Positions 4,122-20,775 of a DNA stretch of 34,423 nt are shown piece by piece. Positions within the stretch are counted from its first letter, which is position 1. Each line of letters starts with the position of its first letter. Source of the stretch: a virus; IMG/VR virus record IMGVR_UViG_3300012936_000071, positions 1-34,423 of that record, one strand, 5' to 3'. Made by a program: the position numbers and the translations under genes. The notes under the pieces are model-generated. The model was not told the origin of the DNA. It did not search any database and was given only the letters and a program-made list of their open reading frames with translations.

Positions 4122-4325
4122 CTATAAGCCGCTTTCTCTAATCTTTGTCAACCTTAAATTCACGGCGTGTTCATTGCATTTATTACAAATTTTGTTTGGT
4201 TTACTAGCTATTGGTTCAGGATCATGAGCGTCCATGATGTTGTTTATTTCTTTATTACAAAGGCAACAGTGTATTGGTTTCGCAAGTTTTTTGTGGGGTG
4301 AAAAACTATTGAAGTGTACTTCCAT
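4122..4325 (-). CDS. Small zinc-finger protein, two CxxC pairs
   Basis: 67 aa, last gene of the - strand array. It has C-x2-C (C-C-L-C) around residue 21 and a second C-N-K-C near residue 50, with a D-A-H-D-P-E-P-I segment between them and R-L after the second pair. From memory, a common phage zinc-ribbon family has the layout C-x-L-C-G-x ... H-N-x-x-P ... C-C-x-x-C-N ... R-L, and this looks like a variant. The start ATG shares its A with the TAA of the giant gene upstream (TAATG), so the two are translationally coupled. Function is unknown; zinc binding and nucleic-acid contact are inferred. The terminator lies about 65 bases downstream. Confidence 0.75.
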   Translation of the reverse strand: MEVHFNSFSPHKKLAKPIHCCLCNKEINNIMDAHDPEPIASKPNKICNKCNEHAVNLRLTKIRESGL

Positions 4326-7300
4326 TAATTATCTACTCCTAATCTAATTCGTAACTTTTGTTGTCGTCGCTCTTGATACCTTGGACTTCTTATTAAATCA
4401 CTTACAGGACTTCGCGTCAAAATATTTGGCGAGTCATTAAAAAATGGTCTAACACGATCTTTAGCTCTTTGAAGGTCACGCCATTCATCACGCAGTGCGT
4501 TCATTTTTGCTGTGTCTCTGCTTCTATTAGCTTGAACGTATTCTCGTTTTAAACGAGATGATGATTCACTAAAATATTCTAGCATTTTAAATTGTTGTCC
4601 TCGTGTAAATTTAAGATTTTGTATTTCTGTAGGAGGTAGCCCCGTAGCCGTCATTAGTAGTTCTGTTAAAGAAATACTACGAGGGTCAAGTATTACGTCT
4701 TTGTTACTAGCTTTATAGCCATCTGTTGCGTAAGTGTACGCGTCCATATAGTGACGGGCTCCTTTTGGTAAAACTAAACTTGCTGCTTTTGATAAATCAC
4801 CCTTAGATATTTCTTCTCCTGCGCCTCCAAAGTTTCGTAAAATACTTGCAGTCGGGCCTGCAAAAACATCAAAAACATAACTCGCTACTCCATCTCTAGT
4901 CCACTCGAGATCACTATAAGGTTGAAAAGCAAAAATGTTTTGATGCCCAATTTTTCCTGAAAAATCTAAACCTAAATATGCAGGCAATCCACGCGTTAAT
5001 AGGTTAGCAATATCTTTGTTTTCTACTTTCTCTCGTATGACTTGTTCAACATATTCTGTGTACCCGTTATTAGCTTTAGCTTTTTCAGCAAATTCAGTAT
5101 CGTCGTCTGCCCCCCATAGCATTAACAGCCCTGCAACTGGTGTTATGATAGGCAAACCTTTTAGGCCTGATACAATTGCTGCATGAGATAGAGTTACCCC
5201 AAGAGTTCTCCACCCGATCATTTTAACTTCTGGAGTTTCTCCCGCCATAGCTTGTTTCATAGCTCTACCATAATTCCAAGCCATCATAACTTGGTACTTG
5301 CGGTATTGAGTTGTTAGTTTAGGTAATCTCTTGAAAGCAAGTGGCGCATCTAAACCGTTAAACGCACCTTGTGTATGTTGCACCGCTTGAATAGCGTAAG
5401 CTACTGGCCCATTAACGTTTAAAGCTCTTAAAACTTTTGGATTCTTTTTTGCCATTTCGTATGCAGCAATTGCTGTTGTAAGACGGTTATGCGCTTCTAC
5501 ATACCTTGCTACCTGATACAATCTGTGCGTCATCCCCGAAGCAAAATCTGTTGCTTCATTAATAAGCCCAAACCCTGTATCAAATCTATTAACTTGATTA
5601 AGGTCTTCTTGTATACCAACATCTGCAAGTTGATGCAGTTCTAACTCCCTAACAAGTTCTTGGTATTCTTGAGGCATAGATTCATCTGTGTTGTCAATTT
5701 CTACATTGTTATTGGTGTTTACCATTCCAATTGTGGCAACTGTTGCTACCTGATTAAAAAACCCACCTTTAATTGATTTATGCGCAATTCGGTAAGCTTT
5801 AAAAATTTCAGCCCAAGCTTTTCCATAAGAAGGTAACACACCTTTACCAAAATCCCCTGCTAATTTGTTATGAGCAATTAGTATCTGCGTATGGTTTTGC
5901 ACATGGTACGCAAAGTTTGTAGTTAGCATAGACACAGTGTTAAATGCTGCAATTCTGTCTTGGATTGCATTAAAAAATCCATCCTCTCTGCGCATCATTT
6001 GAGTATAATGATTGTTCAGTAATTGATATGTTTGCTCTAATTTACCTCTATCTTCCGAAGCCTCTTTTTTAGCAGTTGCCATAGCTTCATTTATAGTGTC
6101 TGAAGTTTTTAAAGTTGCAATTAAATTAGCTCCCGCTCTTGCTTGAAAGATAAAAGAACGAATCATGTCTTTGTTGTACCCTGCTCTGTTTAAACGCTTA
6201 GCTCCTGAAGTACGTGCATCTCTGTAATCCATAGATTCAAAATAATGTTCTAATATCATTTTTCTGAAAGCTTCTTTTGATTGAGAATCAAGTCCTGAAT
6301 TGTCTCCTGCTTTTAGTTTGCCTAACAAAGACTCCAACAATTGAGTAGGAGGAGCATTTTCGTTGTCGTATTGTGTATTTCTAGGAAATGACTCGCTTCT
6401 TGCGTATTTTCCTCCGTTTGCAACATTATTTATTTCTGCAAATTTGTTAGCCGCCCCTTTTGTATCAAAAAACTGTACTACATAATCTTTTTTATTGCCT
6501 TTTAGCTCTTCAAGTTTCTTTCTGTTAAACCCATTTTGATTCTCTTCAAAAGCTTTTTCTGCATCTAAAAGAGCTTTAGATTTAAGGACAACAACTTGAT
6601 CACCAAATCTTTTTAGTGGAGCATAAGGGCCTTGTAATGAAGATGTGCTAAAAAAGTTTCCGGTAATACCTTTTTCTTTTGCTATATCTTGAGTTTCTTT
6701 TCTGCGTTTTTCTCCATAGGCAAATATGTCAGCAATAATTTGTTTTTCATAATCATTAAAACGGTTAAAAGCTCTTTTTAATATATCATTTACTTTAACA
6801 TTTTTGTTTTCAAAAATATCAGGATGATAATCTTCTGGATCGTACCCCCACTGTTGAAAGAATGTAGATTTGTCTAAGAAATCATTAACAAGTGCACGAC
6901 GCTCTGGGCTAAGTTGCATTGAACGCACAGCGATTTTATCTGCTTCTTGTATTAAACGATTTCTAACAGCATCGTGAGACTTTAAAGCATTGTAAGCAGT
7001 TCTGGCTGAAGGCATTACTTTTTCAACGTCAGCTACAAAGTCATATAAAAATTTTAGTTGTTCTTTTGGGTTTTGTATTAGCCCTGTAAGTGCATCATAA
7101 AGCTGTGCTCCATCATCTCCTAAGTTTTTCTTTACCCATGCTCTTCCTTTAGCATTCTGTATAGAAAGCCCTTCATCATATTTTTTAAGAGAAAATCTTT
7201 TTCTTATTGTTTCATAACCTGCAAACCCTTCTCTCCCTAACCCTTTAAGTATTTTTTGAGCAGAATCAGTAGCGCTTGCTCCAGTCATTCTAACCCATTC

Positions 7301-10300
7301 AATATTCGGTACAAGGCCAAATCTGTGTCTAGTTATTCTTCGTCTAAATTCTGTAAGCAACCTTATTAAATCTCGTTGTCTAACACCTTCTAAACGTTTC
7401 CAATCTCCACTAAATTGTATTCCTTTAGTTTCTTTCCCCCCACGGTCTGCGTTAATCATTAATGAAAATGTGTTAGGTAAATACGCAATATTAGCACCAG
7501 AAATAGCAGTCGTTTCTGAGTCTAATTGATCAGCATCTAACGTTAATATAGGGTCTGGGTTTTTATTTTTAGGGCCAGAATATACGTCCATAATTGCTCG
7601 TAGCTTTGGAAGACCTGTTAGGTCATCTGTGTCGTAGTACATGTAAGCTTCAGTTCTTATATCTGTAAACTCTCCAAACTTAGAATTTTTGCCCCATTTA
7701 AACGGTTCTTCTCCTTTATAACCTGACAGACCAGAACGTTCTTTTTCCTTTGTGCTAACTTCTACTTCTGCATCTTCTTCTACTATGTTATATCGGTCTG
7801 CTCCTGCATAATAGTCTTTAAGTATTATTTTGCCTCTTGTCGTAGCTCCTACTTCTCTAACAGGAGCATAATGAGAACCACTTGCTGCTCCTCTTGACAA
7901 AGCTACAAGTTCAGAAGCAGATAGCTGAGGTTTTTTTCCAAGAAAACGAGAAGATAACTCCTCAAAAAAAGATTTAATATCACTTAACCATTTTGCCGCA
8001 AGACTTTCAGAATTAGCATCAGGTTCTACACCTGCAAGAACGGCTTCTTCGACAGCGTAAGCAATTGTTTCAATATTAGCTAGAGATTCGTCCATTCCTG
8101 TTGCGCGAGCAAATACTAAACGTTTCATTGTGTTATCATGTATTTGGCGTTCTACTGAATTTTTAGGACTGTTTTTCCATTCGTTTACAGCATTAGATAA
8201 TAAATCTACTTGTTCTGGGGTTAATATTTCTTCTAGCCCAAGATGGACTCCAACTTCGTGTTGTATAACTGCTTCTTCAGTTCCAGCTTCTATATTGTCT
8301 GCTATTAGATAAGTTTTTACACCGTCTGGAGTTATAAAACCTTGAGAATTTTCGAGGTCGTTTAAAGAATATCCTATTACTTTTTCTGCAATTTTAGGGG
8401 TGTAAGGTAGTTTTTTTCCTTTTACACGAGCATCTTTGTATAGATCTTTATGGGCTTCTTTTGCGGTTTTAACAACTGCCACTCTTCCATAAGGACTATT
8501 GGCGTAAATAGGAAAAGTAAAGTTAACAAACTCGGGTCCGGTATCTGCAATTGTTGAAAGTTTTTTTGCTTCTCTTATAGGTGGATTGTTTCTTGTGTCG
8601 TCTCTAAAAATATTATCTGTCGCTCCTATAGCTTCGTTAACATAATCTTCTAAAGCTTCTACTGTTGTTGCACCTTGGCCCGTAGTTTTCTTGACAGATT
8701 TTCGTAACTTGCTTGTTCTTTTCTTTTCAACATTTACTTTTCCTGATTGGTCTTTGCCTGCGGTGAAGCTGTCTGGGTCGCCTTCTTCGGGCTGTGCCTC
8801 TCGATTATCCTCAGTTCCGACTTGTTTAGTTTGATCCCCGCTTTCTGAGCTCTTATCAGCCCCGGCAGTCTTTCTTTTTGTGTTATCTTTTGGGTCATAT
8901 CTTTTCTCTATCTCCCTTTGTTCTTCTTTTAATTGTATTTCAGAAATATCTCCTACTTCTCGTTCTTCGACTATGGAAATCCATTCCATCATATCTTTTG
9001 TAGACATATTTCTAAAATCTATACCATTATTACTTTTTAATCTGTTCCAGTCTACTATGGCTTTTTGCCCATAATCTTCAACTAATTTAATATTTTGTTT
9101 AGCCCTTGCTCTGTCAGCAATTTCTTTTCGTTTGTTTTCGTACTGATCTTTTTCTTTTGATCGAGCTTTTGTAAATTCTACATCTTCTGGGTCTACGCCT
9201 TTATACGTTCCTTCGCCTACTGACTTTCTAACTCCCATGCCGGGTTGACCAAGTATAGAAATATCTTCTTGACTCGCATCCTCGCTTATTTCGTCCGCGT
9301 CTATACGTTGCCCAACAACATCAGTTTTAGCATCGACTAACTCATCAGACGGAGCTTCTCTACTAGCTTCTATTTTGTCTGCTTGTTGTTGCTTGGCTTG
9401 GTCAGATAAACCTTTTGCAAACTTAGCAACAGCCTGATCTTTTTCGCTTTTTGAGGCATTTGGGTTAAGTGTTCCTTGTTGTTCTACAAACTTAGTTTTG
9501 AATCTGTTAATAGCAGTATTGACATTTTGTTTACCTTTAACTCCTGCAATCTTTGCAATGTTTGTTGGTTGGAATTGTCCGTTTACGTAAACCTGATCAA
9601 TATCAAATTTTTTATCTCCAACGAAATGATCAACCAAAACATCATATATTTTTTGTTGTTCTTTACTTAAACCTTTTAGGTTTACTACTTTATTTTTAGC
9701 TTCTTTTGTTAATGGCTTAACAGCAGTAACTACCTTCTTACCTGTTTGATCAGTTGTTTTTTTAGTTTCTAACTCAACTTTCGCTTTCGCTTCTGCTTCC
9801 CTGGCAGCAAGTACGTCGTCAACGTTTTTCTCCCATTTTGTTTTACCAGCGTTTTTACCTTTTAATGGTCTAAAAATATTTTTATCGTCAGCAAACATTT
9901 GAGATAAAGAACTTGACTGTTTCTCCCAGTCTTCCCCAAGTTTTGCTACTGCATAAGCTCGAGCGTCAATTCTTTTTTGGCTTTCTGGTTTAGGTTGTTT
10001 TTCTATATTTGTTTCTTCTGTATTTGTCTCTTCTATATTTGTTTCAACAACAGGTTTAACAACAGGTTCTTTACCTTTTCCTTTTCCTTTTTTAGCAGGT
10101 TCGTCAACATTATCTGGTCGTTTTTCAATTGTTCCATCTTGTAAACCTTGAGCATAGTTTGCCAACTCAATTTCAAATTCTTGTTTAGCAAGGTCTTTAT
10201 CGTTTACGGGAATAAAATTTTCTAAAAACCCACCCTTTCTTGTTAGCTCTTCTAGGTCTGCTTTATCGGTTTGAGGATATACGCCTGCAGTTATTTTGTA

Positions 10301-11683
10301 GTCTTCGTAAGCAGCTCCAATTTCTGTGTCGGGGTTTAATGCGTCAGTGATACGTTTTTGTCTTCGTGCTTCTTCAAATACGGGTTGCGGTGTAAAAGAC
10401 TTTGCAGCCTCAAACAGAGCTCGTTTTTGCAGTTTTGCTTCTGCATTTGCATTTGCTGCCGAAAGCTCTGCATTTGCTTGATTAAGATTTGCCCCTTTAA
10501 CGTCTTCTTTATCATTTTCCTTTTGTAACTGAACTTCTTCTTCCACTAACTCTTTTTCAAGAAGAGGATCTTTGACTCTAGTTTCAGAGTTTTTGTCACC
10601 TCTGCTTGCAATAATACCTCCAACAGCACCAATTGGCGCCCCTGCAGAAGCACCTAATACAGCAGCCCCTCCAACATTTTCAGATATAGGTTGTCCCGTA
10701 CCTAAGTTAGTAAAAGCTTCTTCACTACCTGACTGTAGAAATTCTTCACCAGATTCTGTTACAAGCCCTTTAAGCGCAGATTTACGAAGTCCTTGACTTG
10801 TTCCTTCTTGAACAAGATCAGTAGTTTCTCCAGATATTTTGTTAGCTACTATTGTATCTATATCTGTTTTTCCTCCGAGAGCAGCTCCCCCTCGACCAAT
10901 TAACGCAGTAGCAGCACCTGCAGGAATACCATACAGTCTATCAGCTGTGTAACCAGTTACTCCTTGATCACGTAAATCACTTACAATTTGTTCAGTAACA
11001 GCACCTCCTGCTATTAAACCTTCTCCTGATGCTGCCGCTGTTCTTGCTCCAAGTCCTGTAGTAGCTGTACCTCTTAGTGCTTGAACTCCTTTTGCAGTTG
11101 CTTGTACACCTTTTGCAGCAATACCTCCCCCAACGATATATGGAATAGCTTGTCCTGCTAACATCAACGCTTGTGAAGGATTCTCAGCTATAAATTTTGC
11201 TGCAGCCCCACCTTGAGATGTAATATTTTTTATATGATCACCGATTGTAGCGTCAGGCCCAAGTTGCCTAGCAGAATCTGCCATAGCTTGTGCCATATCT
11301 TCATTAATATTTTTTTGATACTCAGATAAAAAAGTATCGTCAACCCAGTCCCCTGCATCCATCAAAGCTTCAGCAACAGGGTCGGCAATAACATTTACGC
11401 CGGGAATCAAACTACCAAGTGAAACAAGCCCTCCGGCTGCACGAGGTACTGCACCTACAACACCAGTTACAAAATCACCCGTACCACGCATGATACCTCG
11501 ACTTTCTGGTCTGTCAGGTTCTGGTTCTAAGGGCGCTAAACGAGCTCCAAATGGAGATGTAGAAGAATACTTATCTAAGTCTTCGTTTTGTAAAAGTCGG
11601 CTAACCTCTTCTTCTGTTAAGTCATCATCAGCTTCTATTTCGTAAACTGATCCATTAGTTGCTTCGATTCGATAGGTAGCCAT
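4325..11683 (-). CDS. Giant internal virion (ejection) protein of the polyvalent/PLxRFG type with HExxxH motif
   Basis: 2452 aa, about one fifth of the window. Visible layout: a short beta-rich N-terminus (1-40); Gly/Ala-rich hydrophobic segments between ~70 and 370 that could insert in membranes; a long charged, low-complexity region (~370-1030); a region with H-E-V-G-V-H-L-G-L beginning at His1142, with possible further ligands in E1205 and E1212-E1213; long helical regions; a hydrophobic segment near 2160-2190; and a C-terminal ~100 aa with L-P-P-T-E-I and a basic tail, resembling the PLxRFG/large-polyvalent-protein domains. It occupies the place of T7 gp16 at the end of the internal-protein genes, so ejection with the DNA into the host is the inferred role. 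The motif spacing (HE-x3-H) differs from classical HExxH zincins, so peptidase activity is tentative. No lytic transglycosylase motif was recognised. Confidence 0.8.
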   Translation of the reverse strand: MATYRIEATNGSVYEIEADDDLTEEEVSRLLQNEDLDKYSSTSPFGARLAPLEPEPDRPESRGIMRGTGDFVTGVVGAVPRAAGGLVSLGSLIPGVNVIADPVAEALMDAGDWVDDTFLSEYQKNINEDMAQAMADSARQLGPDATIGDHIKNITSQGGAAAKFIAENPSQALMLAGQAIPYIVGGGIAAKGVQATAKGVQALRGTATTGLGARTAAASGEGLIAGGAVTEQIVSDLRDQGVTGYTADRLYGIPAGAATALIGRGGAALGGKTDIDTIVANKISGETTDLVQEGTSQGLRKSALKGLVTESGEEFLQSGSEEAFTNLGTGQPISENVGGAAVLGASAGAPIGAVGGIIASRGDKNSETRVKDPLLEKELVEEEVQLQKENDKEDVKGANLNQANAELSAANANAEAKLQKRALFEAAKSFTPQPVFEEARRQKRITDALNPDTEIGAAYEDYKITAGVYPQTDKADLEELTRKGGFLENFIPVNDKDLAKQEFEIELANYAQGLQDGTIEKRPDNVDEPAKKGKGKGKEPVVKPVVETNIEETNTEETNIEKQPKPESQKRIDARAYAVAKLGEDWEKQSSSLSQMFADDKNIFRPLKGKNAGKTKWEKNVDDVLAAREAEAKAKVELETKKTTDQTGKKVVTAVKPLTKEAKNKVVNLKGLSKEQQKIYDVLVDHFVGDKKFDIDQVYVNGQFQPTNIAKIAGVKGKQNVNTAINRFKTKFVEQQGTLNPNASKSEKDQAVAKFAKGLSDQAKQQQADKIEASREAPSDELVDAKTDVVGQRIDADEISEDASQEDISILGQPGMGVRKSVGEGTYKGVDPEDVEFTKARSKEKDQYENKRKEIADRARAKQNIKLVEDYGQKAIVDWNRLKSNNGIDFRNMSTKDMMEWISIVEEREVGDISEIQLKEEQREIEKRYDPKDNTKRKTAGADKSSESGDQTKQVGTEDNREAQPEEGDPDSFTAGKDQSGKVNVEKKRTSKLRKSVKKTTGQGATTVEALEDYVNEAIGATDNIFRDDTRNNPPIREAKKLSTIADTGPEFVNFTFPIYANSPYGRVAVVKTAKEAHKDLYKDARVKGKKLPYTPKIAEKVIGYSLNDLENSQGFITPDGVKTYLIADNIEAGTEEAVIQHEVGVHLGLEEILTPEQVDLLSNAVNEWKNSPKNSVERQIHDNTMKRLVFARATGMDESLANIETIAYAVEEAVLAGVEPDANSESLAAKWLSDIKSFFEELSSRFLGKKPQLSASELVALSRGAASGSHYAPVREVGATTRGKIILKDYYAGADRYNIVEEDAEVEVSTKEKERSGLSGYKGEEPFKWGKNSKFGEFTDIRTEAYMYYDTDDLTGLPKLRAIMDVYSGPKNKNPDPILTLDADQLDSETTAISGANIAYLPNTFSLMINADRGGKETKGIQFSGDWKRLEGVRQRDLIRLLTEFRRRITRHRFGLVPNIEWVRMTGASATDSAQKILKGLGREGFAGYETIRKRFSLKKYDEGLSIQNAKGRAWVKKNLGDDGAQLYDALTGLIQNPKEQLKFLYDFVADVEKVMPSARTAYNALKSHDAVRNRLIQEADKIAVRSMQLSPERRALVNDFLDKSTFFQQWGYDPEDYHPDIFENKNVKVNDILKRAFNRFNDYEKQIIADIFAYGEKRRKETQDIAKEKGITGNFFSTSSLQGPYAPLKRFGDQVVVLKSKALLDAEKAFEENQNGFNRKKLEELKGNKKDYVVQFFDTKGAANKFAEINNVANGGKYARSESFPRNTQYDNENAPPTQLLESLLGKLKAGDNSGLDSQSKEAFRKMILEHYFESMDYRDARTSGAKRLNRAGYNKDMIRSFIFQARAGANLIATLKTSDTINEAMATAKKEASEDRGKLEQTYQLLNNHYTQMMRREDGFFNAIQDRIAAFNTVSMLTTNFAYHVQNHTQILIAHNKLAGDFGKGVLPSYGKAWAEIFKAYRIAHKSIKGGFFNQVATVATIGMVNTNNNVEIDNTDESMPQEYQELVRELELHQLADVGIQEDLNQVNRFDTGFGLINEATDFASGMTHRLYQVARYVEAHNRLTTAIAAYEMAKKNPKVLRALNVNGPVAYAIQAVQHTQGAFNGLDAPLAFKRLPKLTTQYRKYQVMMAWNYGRAMKQAMAGETPEVKMIGWRTLGVTLSHAAIVSGLKGLPIITPVAGLLMLWGADDDTEFAEKAKANNGYTEYVEQVIREKVENKDIANLLTRGLPAYLGLDFSGKIGHQNIFAFQPYSDLEWTRDGVASYVFDVFAGPTASILRNFGGAGEEISKGDLSKAASLVLPKGARHYMDAYTYATDGYKASNKDVILDPRSISLTELLMTATGLPPTEIQNLKFTRGQQFKMLEYFSESSSRLKREYVQANRSRDTAKMNALRDEWRDLQRAKDRVRPFFNDSPNILTRSPVSDLIRSPRYQERRQQKLRIRLGVDN

Positions 11684-13368: not shown

Positions 13369-14393
13369 TACGCTACCTCCTTAAATTCAATTCCCAATAG
13401 ATCGTACCGAACAGCTTTAAAACCTAAATCTGTATCTTCGACCGCATCTGGGTACACAAGTTCAACTTCATCAGCCATTACACCACGGAACCGCCTAGTA
13501 GTATCGCCAATATAGTTAAACTCGTAGAGTGTTAATGCTGTGCGTTGATCAACCCCAACTTCCTTTATATTTTCTTTTATTTTTCTGTCAGACGGAAAGA
13601 AAGCAGTTTTTGCTGCGGCTGCTCCACCTAAGAAACCACCTATATCTCCAAGTGGGCTACCAGCAGTATTAATATATGTTTGTGTTTGGTTATTAAGTAT
13701 ATTGCTTAACCCGCTTAAATTCATTTTCTGCCCAGTGGCTATTGTATTTGCGCCCATTCCCATATTTCTCATATAGTTTTGTCCTGCAGATTGAGCACTT
13801 TGTCCTGCTGCACTACCTGCACCTGTCGCTCCACCGTAAGCTCCAAGTGATGCACCTGCTAATCCACGACCAAGTCCTGCTGCATCTAACTGTCTAGCAT
13901 ACCCCATCTGTTCTGCTTGTTGTCTTGTGCCTGTCATGGCATTAGCGCGCATCGCTGCCTGTTGTAACCCTGTTGCATTTTGCATTCCTGCGAATCTACC
14001 ACTATTAGGATTGACACCCATTGACGCCATAGCTCTTTGATTTTGTTGTTGTGATATACCAAAGGCCCGTCCTGCATCAGCTGCTGCCTGACTTGCTAAT
14101 TGTTCTCTATAAGCTTCTGTGTTGAACCTCTGTGCATCTTGAACAATTGATCTTTCAAGAGGTCGAAAAGTATCTGTTTGATAATTATAATAATCTCTGG
14201 CTTGTTGCATCTGTTCTGCTTGAGCAGCCATTTGTTGATCAGCTATGCTTTGAAGTATTGGTGCTGTTCTGTCGTATTGTTCTCTAGCAAACTGTAATTG
14301 TTCGCGGCCTAGCCCTGCTTGAATACGCGCAGCTTCTGCAGATGCTTCCGCTAGTGGAGCGTAGTCGGGAGCTTCAACGGTGTTTTTTCCCAT
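13368..14393 (-). CDS. Internal virion protein with C-terminal S74-like chaperone module
   Basis: 341 aa. I chose the ATG at 14393, preceded by AGAGGAAA on the - strand; extending to a TTG at 14426 would deepen the overlap with the acetyltransferase-like gene. The N-terminal ~250 residues are rich in Ala, Gly, Gln and Met, with helical repeats and no cysteines, like gp14-type internal proteins. The last ~74 residues begin with S268-D-R-K-I-K273-E-N-I and end with R-F-R-G-V-M-A-D-E-V-E and V-Y-P-D-A-V, which matches the intramolecular chaperone of endosialidase (peptidase S74), including the Ser and Lys of the self-cleavage site. In fibres this module trimerises the protein and then cuts itself off; here it sits on a probable internal or portal-associated protein. 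The start overlaps the upstream gene by 43 bases. Confidence 0.78.
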   Translation of the reverse strand: MGKNTVEAPDYAPLAEASAEAARIQAGLGREQLQFAREQYDRTAPILQSIADQQMAAQAEQMQQARDYYNYQTDTFRPLERSIVQDAQRFNTEAYREQLASQAAADAGRAFGISQQQNQRAMASMGVNPNSGRFAGMQNATGLQQAAMRANAMTGTRQQAEQMGYARQLDAAGLGRGLAGASLGAYGGATGAGSAAGQSAQSAGQNYMRNMGMGANTIATGQKMNLSGLSNILNNQTQTYINTAGSPLGDIGGFLGGAAAAKTAFFPSDRKIKENIKEVGVDQRTALTLYEFNYIGDTTRRFRGVMADEVELVYPDAVEDTDLGFKAVRYDLLGIEFKEVA

Positions 14394-14815
14394 AATCGCT
14401 TTCCTCTCATATAGTTCTCGGGCCAAAGCACGAGGATTAACATATCTTGACCGGATGATCCGGCGTTCTTCATTATGGCTTCTATACGAAAACCAATATG
14501 TATGTCTAGGTGGAGTGCTTTAGTATTATCAGCTTCCACCAGTCCTGTAAGTCTTTGGAGCTTACAATCTTGAAATGCATAAATAAAAGCATGATCTAAA
14601 AGCTCTAAAAACAATTTGGTGGGTTTGCTGACTGCAATATGTACGTTTGCATTGTGGCCGTTCATACTTTCAAACACTATACCACTTACTATATTGCCTT
14701 TGGTTTCAGCGCCCATAGCGTAGTAATTATGCCAACTAGCACCGTCAGGCATCTGCTCGGCTACCCATTCACCAACTCGACATTTATCATCAAATATTAA
14801 TCGAGATGTAGACAT
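14351..14815 (-). CDS. GNAT-like acetyltransferase-fold protein
   Basis: 154 aa from the ATG at 14815, which has GGAG five bases upstream; a GTG 18 bases earlier is in frame but overlaps that site. The middle and C-terminal parts read L-x-G-L-V-E-A-D-N-T-K-A-L-x-L and then I-G-F-R-x-E-A, the usual beta4/alpha4 region of GNAT N-acetyltransferases, followed by D-M-L-I-L-V-L-W as the last strand. GNAT-like proteins of this size are frequent among internal-protein genes of T7-like and marine podoviruses, where their substrate is unknown. The acetyl-CoA loop is not classical (no clear Q-x-x-G-x-G/A), so it may be a structural relative rather than an enzyme. It overlaps the following internal-protein gene by 43 bases. 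Confidence 0.65.
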   Translation of the reverse strand: MSTSRLIFDDKCRVGEWVAEQMPDGASWHNYYAMGAETKGNIVSGIVFESMNGHNANVHIAVSKPTKLFLELLDHAFIYAFQDCKLQRLTGLVEADNTKALHLDIHIGFRIEAIMKNAGSSGQDMLILVLWPENYMRGKRLWEKTPLKLPTTLH

Positions 14816-14866
14816 AACTACTCCTGACCACACGTTATCATATTAGATTGCAATTTGACAATCATT

Positions 14867-17569: not shown

Positions 17570-17971
17570 TCATCTTGCCAATACCGTATATTGATGAGTT
17601 ACCATTTGTGAAGTATTCCCACGATAAATTACAATACGATTCAAAGCACTATTTACAAAACCGGCATAAGGACGAAGTTGCTCTTCTGAAGTATCTCGTA
17701 CTTCAATAGGGGTAAATATAACACGAAACTCGCTAAATTCTGGATGATAGGTATACGGGCTCCCCTGCTGCAAGCTACCTTCACCAAGTGGCCAGTAATA
17801 ACCATAACCTGTATATGCATTTCCATTTGCCTGTATATATTTATACACAAGCAGAGCTGTACCATAGCTATAAGGAGTGCCACTGGTTATTGGCGAAACA
17901 GTTCCTCTGGAATGAACGCTAAAAGCACTATACGTTAAATCGTCACCATCAACTTGTATTCCGTACGACAT
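17570..17971 (-). CDS. Tail protein, short paralogue-like of the 386-aa protein
   Basis: 133 aa, rich in Tyr, Gly and Ser, apparently all beta. It starts M-S-Y-G-I-Q-V-D-G-D-D, a form of the [FY]-G-[LI]-Q-V opening found in small phage tail proteins, often at the tail tip. The next gene (386 aa) opens with a related R-Y-G-I segment, so the two may be distant relatives. Its ATG overlaps the TAA of the 934-aa tail fibre (TAATG at 17969-17973), implying coupled translation and joint assembly. Exact function is unknown. Confidence 0.62.
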   Translation of the reverse strand: MSYGIQVDGDDLTYSAFSVHSRGTVSPITSGTPYSYGTALLVYKYIQANGNAYTGYGYYWPLGEGSLQQGSPYTYHPEFSEFRVIFTPIEVRDTSEEQLRPYAGFVNSALNRIVIYRGNTSQMVTHQYTVLAR

Positions 17972-20775
17972 TACGACAATTCTCCTATTCTCACTCGAAG
18001 GGTATTTCCGTCAAATACTTCAATCTTGGTAGAAGTAATTTTTAATCTATCACCTGTGGCTGCATTAGATACATCTAGTGTCCCACGAAAAGTTGCATCA
18101 TTTGCCTCTATCTGTCCTGTTTTATCTATTTTCCAACCTGCAGTCCCTGCAGAATAATTTGATGATTGTATGACATTGCCAATTTTAGCATTATCAATTG
18201 ATGCATCTTGAATCATAGCGCTTTTAATAAAAACAAAATTATTGGATACTGTAAAAGGCTGAGTGCTTCCTAACGTTTGACCAGCAACACCTTGAGTAAC
18301 TGTTATTGTCGCCGCTTGAGAATTATTAGGTCCGCTTGTTACCCTAGTAGTACTTACACCTAAATTATTATTTCCTAAGTCAACTCTAGTTACCAAATTA
18401 ATATTTGAACCACCTGTTATAGCGCTAGAATTTGTAGATGTAAAACCAGACATTGCGTCAATAGCATCCTCTATATTCTGGGCAGTTACAGAATTACCGG
18501 AGCCACTTATATTAAAATTGTGCTCAGGCCTAAAAAAATGAGTTGCATCGTTAAAATTTGTAGTTGTAATAAGTGATTGACCGTTTACAGTTACTTCTCG
18601 ATTTACTACTGTTTTTCCACTAGATGATGCAGTATCTCGTTTTACCCTTATGATGTTATAATGAGCTGCGCCGTTACTGCCGTTATAACCTTGCTCCTCA
18701 TGCGTAGCAGAAAGGCCGGGTATTCCATTTATAGCAGCAGCTAAATTGCGAGCTGTATACACTAAATTGTTATATTCAGTATCTTGAGTGTTTCTCCATG
18801 CATAATAAGGGTAGACTCTATATGTTGCTATTACATTACCCATATTGTTACCGTGTATAGCACAAGAATATCTTAAGGTATTATTAAGATCGGTATTATC
18901 AGGAAAACCATCATCAGAACTAGCTGCCCCTGCCCAACTATATTGATTGGGATCGTCAAAGTCCCACTGTTTAAGGAAACCTTGTGGAGCATCTGTCGCA
19001 ACTGTTAGTTCAATTTTTCTATCACCAGAACTTCGACCAGCATTAAATGTAGTTGTGTTAACATATTGAGCTCTTGTAACTTCTGATCCATTTAAAAAAT
19101 ATTTAACGCCATCTTCATAATTCGATTCATTTCCAGAAGTAATTTTTTTAAACACTAAGGGGTGCCCATCATTAGTTGCGTTATTTTGGTTAAAAGTATA
19201 AGTTTTACCTACAATAAAACGAAGAGGAGGAAAGCTGTCACGATGCGGCACTCCTTGCTCCCCCCTATCAAGAGAAAAAGCATTACCAGAATAACCCCCA
19301 GAAGAGGTATAGACAACTGTAACTGAAATTGTAGCACCAGTCATATATTCGGATGGAGTATACACTTTTTTACTATTAGAACCTGAGCCAGTAGCATTTA
19401 CGGAACCCCAAGCTGTTGTTCCTGTAGTTTGCCCGTAAGACTTTGTTCTATTTGTAGGATAACCTGCCTGATCATATGGAGTGTTTAGGGGATCATGTGA
19501 AGGTAATTTATTAGTAGTTGCACCACTACCGCCACCAAAAGGTGCATTTGCAGTAATAACTCCAAAACATGTTACAACGTAAGTCTTTCCTGCTACTTCA
19601 AACTCTATTTGATGTCTGTTCGTATATATATCCCAAATAGAACTATAAGAACCACCTCGTAGTTGACGTGCATTAGACTCACTGGCTGTTATACTTTCAT
19701 CTAGTAAAATGGTAGAAGTGTTTCCAATAAAAGCAGAAGTAGGAGTTACATTAAATTGATTGGAGTTAGAGTTTTTAGGGTCGGCCTCTAAAGTTATTTC
19801 TTCTCCATTATTTTTAAAAAATCTAATTTGCGCACCTACTGGGATGTACTCCCAGTTATTTACTGTTATCGTAAAAGTAGCCCCTGATGTGGAAGTACGA
19901 ATACTAAACACATTTACATCAAATAATGCGCCTGATCCATCTCCAAAAAGAGATATACTTGGATCTGAGACTGACGCTATACCAATATTGTTCCCGTCTG
20001 AATCTGTATTATAATTGACAGTTCCGCCAAGATGTATATCTGTTCCAGCGATTTTATTACCATAAAAATCAACAGTACTTAAAAGACTAGATGTAATTTT
20101 ATCTGCCGTTAAATCTTTAACTTTTGCGTTTGTTATAGAAGCATCATGAATAAAAGCACTTTTCATATAAGTGCCTGCTGGAACAGATACACCATTAATT
20201 GTTGTTGCTGAACCTATCTGAAAAAAAGGTGATTGAGAGTTAGTTCCATAAGTCTCAGCTAACAACTCCATAAGAAAGTTAGGGCTAGTTGAAGTTGCGC
20301 CTTGTGTTCCTGCTGTTTTATTAAATGCGCTTGCTTCTCCATTTTGATTTATATTTCGTACCCAATAGTATCTTGTACCTGACCCACCTACAGCATGAGA
20401 AAAATTGTTACCAGATGTCATACCAACAAGTACAGCGTCACCTATAACATCAGAAGTATGAGCCCAAATTTCAGTGTAAGCATGTCCTATATAAGCTGGA
20501 GCATTCCAGCTAACTATTATACTTGCATGTGCTGCTGATACAGACAAATTTGTAGGAGGTCGTGCAGATTCAATTGTTCTAATAATAGAATTTACAGAAG
20601 GTGATGGTGTTATATCTCCTGTAGACGTACCTGTTACTATTCCAGTAGCAATAAGTTTTCGTGCAGTTAAAACGCCATCAACTCCTCCACCATCAAGTGC
20701 CTCACGAACACGTTGCACAAACTGTTGTAAATCACGTGGAAGAGGAGACGAGACGGTTGGTAGATTATTAGCCAC
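17971..20775 (-). CDS. Tail fibre/tail-tip protein with FN3-like and cupredoxin-like domains
   Basis: 934 aa, GTG start with GGAG 8 bases upstream; it overlaps the nozzle gene by 8 bases. Visible parts: an N-terminal helix; an FN3-like domain (~72-160, with I-I-V-S-W and aromatic strands); a segment ending A-F-I-H-D-A-S-I-T-N-A-K (~209-220); a beta-rich stretch; a cupredoxin-like domain (~480-655) with H538-P-L-V-F, then Y-S-C638-x2-H641-x3-M645; two Ala-rich alpha/beta modules (~675-830); and a second A-M-I-Q-D-A-S-I-D-N-A-K segment (~855) running into the C-terminal G-T-L-D-V region, like the end of lambda gpJ-type central fibres. The repeated '[IM]-x-D-A-S-I-x-N-A-K' segments flank the insert. 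It would bind receptors at the tail tip. Copper binding is inferred from the motif only. Confidence 0.75.
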   Translation of the reverse strand: MANNLPTVSSPLPRDLQQFVQRVREALDGGGVDGVLTARKLIATGIVTGTSTGDITPSPSVNSIIRTIESARPPTNLSVSAAHASIIVSWNAPAYIGHAYTEIWAHTSDVIGDAVLVGMTSGNNFSHAVGGSGTRYYWVRNINQNGEASAFNKTAGTQGATSTSPNFLMELLAETYGTNSQSPFFQIGSATTINGVSVPAGTYMKSAFIHDASITNAKVKDLTADKITSSLLSTVDFYGNKIAGTDIHLGGTVNYNTDSDGNNIGIASVSDPSISLFGDGSGALFDVNVFSIRTSTSGATFTITVNNWEYIPVGAQIRFFKNNGEEITLEADPKNSNSNQFNVTPTSAFIGNTSTILLDESITASESNARQLRGGSYSSIWDIYTNRHQIEFEVAGKTYVVTCFGVITANAPFGGGSGATTNKLPSHDPLNTPYDQAGYPTNRTKSYGQTTGTTAWGSVNATGSGSNSKKVYTPSEYMTGATISVTVVYTSSGGYSGNAFSLDRGEQGVPHRDSFPPLRFIVGKTYTFNQNNATNDGHPLVFKKITSGNESNYEDGVKYFLNGSEVTRAQYVNTTTFNAGRSSGDRKIELTVATDAPQGFLKQWDFDDPNQYSWAGAASSDDGFPDNTDLNNTLRYSCAIHGNNMGNVIATYRVYPYYAWRNTQDTEYNNLVYTARNLAAAINGIPGLSATHEEQGYNGSNGAAHYNIIRVKRDTASSSGKTVVNREVTVNGQSLITTTNFNDATHFFRPEHNFNISGSGNSVTAQNIEDAIDAMSGFTSTNSSAITGGSNINLVTRVDLGNNNLGVSTTRVTSGPNNSQAATITVTQGVAGQTLGSTQPFTVSNNFVFIKSAMIQDASIDNAKIGNVIQSSNYSAGTAGWKIDKTGQIEANDATFRGTLDVSNAATGDRLKITSTKIEVFDGNTLRVRIGELS

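Follow-up and report, generated by a model that had tools for sequence, protein, structure and literature searches.

A predicted cupredoxin domain with a putative copper site in a phage central tail fibre protein, and its relatives in marine tail and cell-surface proteins

Introduction

Type-1 copper proteins of the cupredoxin class carry their ligands in the order His...Cys-x(n)-His-x(n)-Met, and in blue copper proteins the first histidine is usually, and classically, followed by an asparagine. In amicyanin, the ligands C92, H95 and M98 correspond to the loop length C-x2-H-x2-M (PMC12723479). Type-1 copper domains also occur as parts of larger enzymes, such as the Hyphomicrobium CuNIR (2dv6) and the Nitrosopumilus multicopper oxidase (9cck). 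Concerning cupredoxins in phage tails, nothing was found in the open-access literature searched, which did not cover subscription journals and preprints.

The DNA analysed here, called the window, is an IMG/VR virus record of 34.4 kb (34,423 nucleotides). A first-pass annotation, made from sequence alone, had proposed a cupredoxin-like domain within a tail protein encoded by the window and had suggested that a copper site on a tail could sense or use metal or redox state at the cell surface. The domain is described below as a member of a large family of cupredoxins, not described so far, that occurs in marine tail and cell-surface proteins and is unnamed in Pfam and NCBIfam, although its absence from the literature is not proof of novelty.

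The carrier gene and its viral record

The domain is carried by a protein of 934 amino acids, encoded at 17971..20775 on the minus strand with a GTG start. The protein belongs to the J-like central tail fibres: PF09327 (Phage_Tail_Tip) matches residues 828-904 in Pfam with E = 2.4e-22 and 79.6 bits against a cut-off of 22, and the PHROG matches include 496 (tail fiber, 1.1e-31) and 31 (central tail fiber J, 2.8e-15) among several tail-fibre PHROGs. Other genes of the record encode a protein matching major head proteins, an internal virion protein, an endolysin and a DUF927 primase/helicase-like protein. For the internal virion protein encoded alongside, the closest annotated phages have Aeromonas, Achromobacter and Vibrio as hosts; because identity there is only about 35%, the host of the virus remains undetermined.

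Two further genes of the record may be mentioned. A reading frame of 2452 amino acids (4325-11683, minus strand) gave no significant Pfam match, and its C-terminal third matches PHROG 10089, DarB-like antirestriction, at 8e-22. An Acyl-CoA N-acyltransferase-like gene (14351-14833, minus strand; PHROG 4470, 8e-26) is sited among the virion genes.

On comparison with orthologues, the tail protein divides into two conserved arms and a variable centre. The N-terminal arm (residues 1-247; 20035..20775, minus strand) is common to all orthologues and is 89% identical to that of L087 and 62-70% identical to those of L088-L090. The C-terminal arm (residues 850-934; 17974..18228, minus strand), a DUF1983-like tip region where the PF09327 match ends, is likewise common to all, with 91% identity to L087 and 80-81% to L088-L090. 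The central insert between them (residues 248-849; 18229..20034, minus strand) contains the cupredoxin-like domain (residues ~476-660; 18796..19350, minus strand), which is supported by an AF2 model, PDB fold matches and a leave-out profile. In L088-L090, which are only 354-355 amino acids long, the whole centre of about 600 residues is missing and both arms are joined directly via short repeats; L091 and L092 are likewise without the cupredoxin domain. L087 keeps the centre, with all four ligand residues. Compared with L087, the window protein has arms of about 90% identity and a centre of 47-67%; the module is thus evolving quickly, yet it keeps its ligands. The domain thus lies within a module of about 600 residues that separates the two conserved arms of the J-like central tail fibre, and from this position it is probably displayed at the surface of the virion, close to the tail tip.

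Predicted fold and relation to known families

The AF2 model of residues 476-662, built with an alignment of 55 diverse copies (A2, non-redundant at about 70%), had a mean pLDDT of 81.4 and a pTM of 0.79, with a core above 90; the only poorly modelled parts were one loop and the insert that precedes the Cys strand. A compact relative of the domain gave a better model (pLDDT 88). When the window domain was compared with the PDB by Foldseek, CueO, CuNIR, AcoP and laccases came first; the E-values were modest, at best 7e-3 for this domain and 1.5e-3 for the compact relative. VIA-align placed the window domain with the A domains of factor VIII (Z 8.3), the N-terminal domain of 2dv6 (Z 8.0) and two-domain laccases, and the compact relative best with the same 2dv6 domain (Z 8.8, rmsd 2.6 over 104 residues). 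For both models, the rows shown by VIA-align were cupredoxin folds only. The models thus present the Greek-key beta-sandwich of cupredoxins, as a prediction and not as a solved structure.

At the level of sequence, a single-sequence search of the PDB with the window domain gave chance matches only, and a family profile was needed. With the A2 profile, five plastocyanins of cyanobacteria headed the PDB sequences, at 5e-4 to 1e-3 (5.4e-4 for 3cvb), and their ligands fell in register with those of the family. Antibody domains also appeared as weak matches; they were set aside, as the ligands are missing from them and the best plastocyanins score higher. In hhalign, the Cys-loop half alone of the domain was aligned with the plastocyanin stretch (probability 89). 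A leave-out profile, from which the window and its nearest relative had been excluded, recovered the window domain at E = 7e-12, which argues that the domain is not a chance finding.

Existing family models do not cover the domain. In Pfam, PHROG and NCBIfam, nothing above cut-off was found for the domain region of the window protein or for the compact relatives, apart from PHROGs for some relatives. The commonest weak match in A2 was PF00127 (Copper-bind), found for 13 of the 55 members at E up to 1 (best 0.0062); it did not match the window copy, and in one relative it reached 13.2 bits against a cut-off of 21.2, so that the domain does not qualify as a member. The same holds for TIGR02657 (amicyanin, NCBIfam), with 14.4 bits and 0.036 in one relative against a curated cut-off of 110 bits. 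Weak matches of a few members to CBM_4_9 (carbohydrate-binding) and to other Pfam families were taken as noise arising from a shared beta-sandwich. As a separate observation, the plant family PF25489 (At5g54830-like) was weakly matched by 7 of the 55 members, the best at 1.9e-6, and may point to a eukaryotic relative of the family.

The putative copper site

The four putative ligands are His538 in GHPLVF, which starts at residue 537 (19162..19164), Cys638 in YSCAIHGNNM, which starts at residue 636 (18862..18864), His641 (18853..18855) and the axial Met645 (18841..18843), all on the minus strand. Each is invariant in A2, where they occupy columns H63, C163, H166 and M170 in model numbering. The mean column identity in this alignment is 25%, and the four ligands are its only invariant columns. 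In an earlier alignment of seven sequences, the H, C, H and M columns were likewise the only four without variation. The type-1 ligands are hence present in order and conserved, as in cupredoxins; their role as ligands in the window protein is inferred.

As many members had been chosen by C, H and M, the unselected ligands were tested with a profile in which the four ligand columns were masked. In copies selected on C, H and M, the first histidine was present in all 213 that aligned, and five more were truncated there. In copies selected on the N-terminal half only, C, H and M were present in 93 of 93 complete copies, and two ran off the contig.

The behaviour of the four residues as a unit was seen in the gp7 set, which was drawn from the tail clusters of three cyanophages and from 57 contigs selected by a degenerate gp7 copy. 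Here, 111 copies were intact (107, and 4 whose alignment ends before the loop), 57 copies (35 of them non-identical) had none of the four ligands, and no mixed copy was found. The degenerate copy is the second cupredoxin of cyanophage gp7 (S-SSM5 gp7, L331:24111-28268; L414-L470), from which the four ligands have gone together. Since the 57 are largely one orthologous copy, they represent one or a few loss events and not 57. All-or-none retention of this kind argues that the four residues are maintained together, as a single metal site.

The window loop reads C-x2-H-x3-M, and 100 residues separate H538 from C638; among relatives, the His-Cys distance has a median of 50 and a range of 40-115. 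An insert in the domain at residues ~598-633 (18877..18984, minus strand), just before the Cys loop, is absent from compact relatives and shorter in L087. The stretch preceding the Cys loop was modelled with low confidence (model residues 138-150) and differs in length in the closest relative. The spacing C-x2-H-x2-M was found in all 216 copies of the motif-picked sets, a count largely fixed by the search pattern itself, and C-x2-H-x3-M is used in the window's branch and in the L003 group. The first histidine is directly followed by proline in 200 of the 216 copies (Pro539 in the window). With proline in the place of asparagine, the site may be atypical and its spectroscopy perhaps non-classical. 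A tyrosine two residues ahead of the cysteine is kept in 98% of copies and a tyrosine adjoining it in 87%; the window copy has serine at the latter position.

The first-pass annotation had given these four residues, the GHPLVF strand, the C-x2-H-x3-M loop and a His-Cys distance of about 100 residues, and had suspected an insertion; all of this was confirmed, the insertion by the shorter median distance and the extra stretch before the Cys loop. The marine-phage motif that it had mentioned is real, GHPLRF...YYYCxxHSGMGG being very common. Two of its expectations for a cupredoxin, the fold of residues ~476-660 and homologues conserving H, C, H and M, were also borne out, the former in prediction by AF2, Foldseek and VIA-align. 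The likeness to plastocyanin that it had drawn proved apt and inexact, as most loops of the family have the amicyanin length and proline replaces asparagine.

Distribution among phages and cells

With the 138-aa domain core as query, tblastn matched 252 phage records (E up to 10), which are almost exclusively cyanophages, and many of the matches fell in gp7 baseplate wedge proteins. In S-SSM5, P-HM1 and S-B64, the equivalent region ends in C-x2-H-x2-M. In IMG/VR, the compact stand-alone relative (L002/L003) has 375 relatives, and a scan for YYCxxHxxMGG returned at least 120 stretches, in nearly all of which iterated profiles place the domain. Relatives with the same four residues are present in hundreds of IMG/VR contigs. 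Among 50,697 annotated phage records, 120 carry the consensus-like domain at 1e-4; all are of marine origin where this is stated, and they comprise phages of Synechococcus, Prochlorococcus, Pelagibacter and Methylophilales as well as marine single-cell viruses. No relative of the compact or consensus-like domain was found in plasmids.

Besides the J-like fibre, the domain is fused in phages to T4 gp9-like connectors (PF07880), to T7-like fibres (PF03906) and to gp7 with YHYH (PF14240). In one cyanophage gp9-like baseplate connector (L331:22878-24104), PF07880 forms the N-terminus and an intact cupredoxin lies at the C-terminal end. The cupredoxin domain maps to the C-terminus of PHROG 677.

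The same cupredoxin family is found in cells. Lipoproteins of SAR86 and other gammaproteobacteria carry it behind a Gly-rich linker; loci of this kind, including L214, L227, L237 and L244, encode short lipoproteins in which a lipobox Cys is followed by poly-Gly and then the cupredoxin. Marine Group II archaeal lipoproteins combine it with a collagen-like stalk (PF01391, tested on L326). In L326, of Marine Group II / Poseidoniales type, as in L245, L272, L282, L291, L295 and L310, a lipobox and collagen-like stalk precede a C-terminal cupredoxin with all ligands. The domain was also observed inside very large frames of Flavobacteriaceae (L225, L215, L248, L252, L313) and Photobacterium (L234, L242, L256). 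These exceed 2600 amino acids within 8-kb loci and are likely to be giant surface proteins.

In a small tree, virus and cell copies interleave, with 10 label changes, at least 2 of them forced by starred branches; the tree rests on few columns and has many unresolved forks. The window copy groups with viral copies only. From the interleaving, it was concluded that the module probably moved between viruses and cells more than once, the direction being undetermined.

Interpretation

The reading preferred here is that the domain in the window protein is a genuine cupredoxin and that it bears a copper site at the surface of the tail. The probability of this reading is put at roughly 0.6, without metal data or inspected ligand geometry behind it. 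The complete type-1 ligand set H538, C638, H641 and M645 is present, and copper binding is likely, by inference and without a metal measurement, because exactly the metal ligands are retained and because they are lost all-or-none.

As for function, the copper domain would serve mainly as a surface adhesion module and not as an electron carrier, the metal site shaping or making the contact with the host. The virion-attachment modules to which the domain is joined are unrelated to one another, and its partners in cells are giant proteins and lipoprotein signals with a stalk, either Gly-rich or collagen-like. Host contact is inferred because the domain sits in fibres, connectors and stalked surface lipoproteins. 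As this rests on location and architecture alone, without host-contact data, the role could as well be wrong as right even if copper is bound. It is still ranked above redox, host mimicry, another metal and metal-free use, all of these functions being inferred. The copper sensing or redox role offered in the first-pass annotation remains conjecture for want of functional data, while its overall interpretation is supported.

A bolder reading joins several claims: marine phages of several tail types would use copper-loaded type-1 sites at the host surface, with redox or coordination chemistry serving either to dock on a partner, itself a copper or redox one, or to trigger infection, and the module would have been exchanged with the surface cupredoxins of marine bacteria and archaea. 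Taken jointly, this falls short of an even chance. If it were true, viral metalloprotein receptor-binding modules would be a class not described before.

Among the rivals, the first is a working redox centre, in which Cu(I)/Cu(II) cycling senses redox state or exchanges electrons with a surface or periplasmic protein of the host, for instance as an infection trigger. In its favour, the type-1 sites of the characterised relatives plastocyanin and amicyanin are those of electron carriers, the two tyrosines near the cysteine are kept (98% and 87%), and the cyanophage copies are located in the baseplate proteins gp7 and gp9-like connector. However, no partner, electron donor or acceptor has been identified, the window copy has serine in place of the adjacent tyrosine, and a free virion has no electron supply. 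This rival is considered unlikely.

Host mimicry, by which the phage domain would copy the surface cupredoxins of marine microbes and dock on their partner or uptake route, has less standing still. The occurrence of the family in SAR86/gammaproteobacterial and Marine Group II lipoproteins and in giant proteins of Flavobacteriaceae and Photobacterium speaks for it, as does the interleaving of virus and cell copies (10 label changes, at least 2 forced). Against it, the supporting tree is weak in columns and resolution, the window copy lies among viral copies only, and neither its host nor any partner is identified.

It is also improbable that another metal is bound, or that copper is merely carried, for metal buffering or Trojan-horse delivery. 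An H-C-H-M set can bind other thiophilic metals in vitro, and the Ferrojan Horse literature proposes iron-bearing tails, but the ligand order and loop spacings here are those of type-1 copper proteins.

The last rival, a metal-free structural spacer like the Ig-like domains of phage structural proteins, with the four residues serving for folding, can draw on the fact that cupredoxins can fold without metal and on the persistence in cyanophages of degenerate gp7 copies lacking all four, but it is considered about as unlikely as host mimicry: those copies show the fold to be independent of the residues, and elsewhere exactly these four are invariant while the rest varies.

Under the preferred reading of a copper-binding tail domain, the presence of a complete set of blue-copper ligands where many marine phages face their hosts suggests that copper has a part in infection at sea, an environment in which copper and iron are limiting or toxic to microbes; carriers may possibly hold copper on the part of the virion that touches the host. 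Such a role would also assign a function to a domain that is among the more frequent unnamed ones in marine tail fibres, and would connect it with surface lipoproteins, likewise unnamed, in SAR86 and Marine Group II archaea. Cultured carrier phages exist for Synechococcus, Prochlorococcus, Pelagibacter and Methylophilales, among them S-SSM5, P-HM1 and Pelagibacter phage EXVC032P.

Comparison with known systems

Cyanobacterial plastocyanin (3cvb, 1baw, 2w88) gives the best PDB sequence matches, with H, C, H and M in register, and its His-Cys spacing resembles the 50 residues typical of the tail and surface family. It differs in that the present domain is fused within tail and surface proteins, and the E-values are only about 1e-3. 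Plastocyanin has C-x2-H-x4-M and asparagine after the first histidine, whereas the window has C-x2-H-x3-M and Pro539, so that the domain is not a plastocyanin proper; the plastocyanin loop is 1-2 residues longer than the C-x2-H-x2/3-M of the family. Amicyanin shares the loop length C-x2-H-x2-M with most of the family. Unlike the tail domain, amicyanin works as an unattached electron carrier of the periplasm; its loop is one residue shorter than that of the window, and the weak match of one relative to TIGR02657 stays far under the NCBIfam threshold.

Among the closest structural matches is the N-terminal type-1 Cu domain region of Hyphomicrobium CuNIR (2dv6; Z 8.0 and 8.8). In the Nitrosopumilus multicopper oxidase (9cck), the cupredoxin at the C-terminus has C-x2-H-x2-M in YICTLHPWMKG. 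In both of these, the cupredoxin serves a linked catalytic domain, whereas none was recognised in the tail protein. The cyanophage gp7 baseplate wedge and gp9-like connector (PHROG 708 and 677) possess the same domain with the four residues, and their annotations do not mention a copper domain. These are contractile-tail baseplate proteins of T4-like phages, whereas the window gene encodes a J-like fibre.
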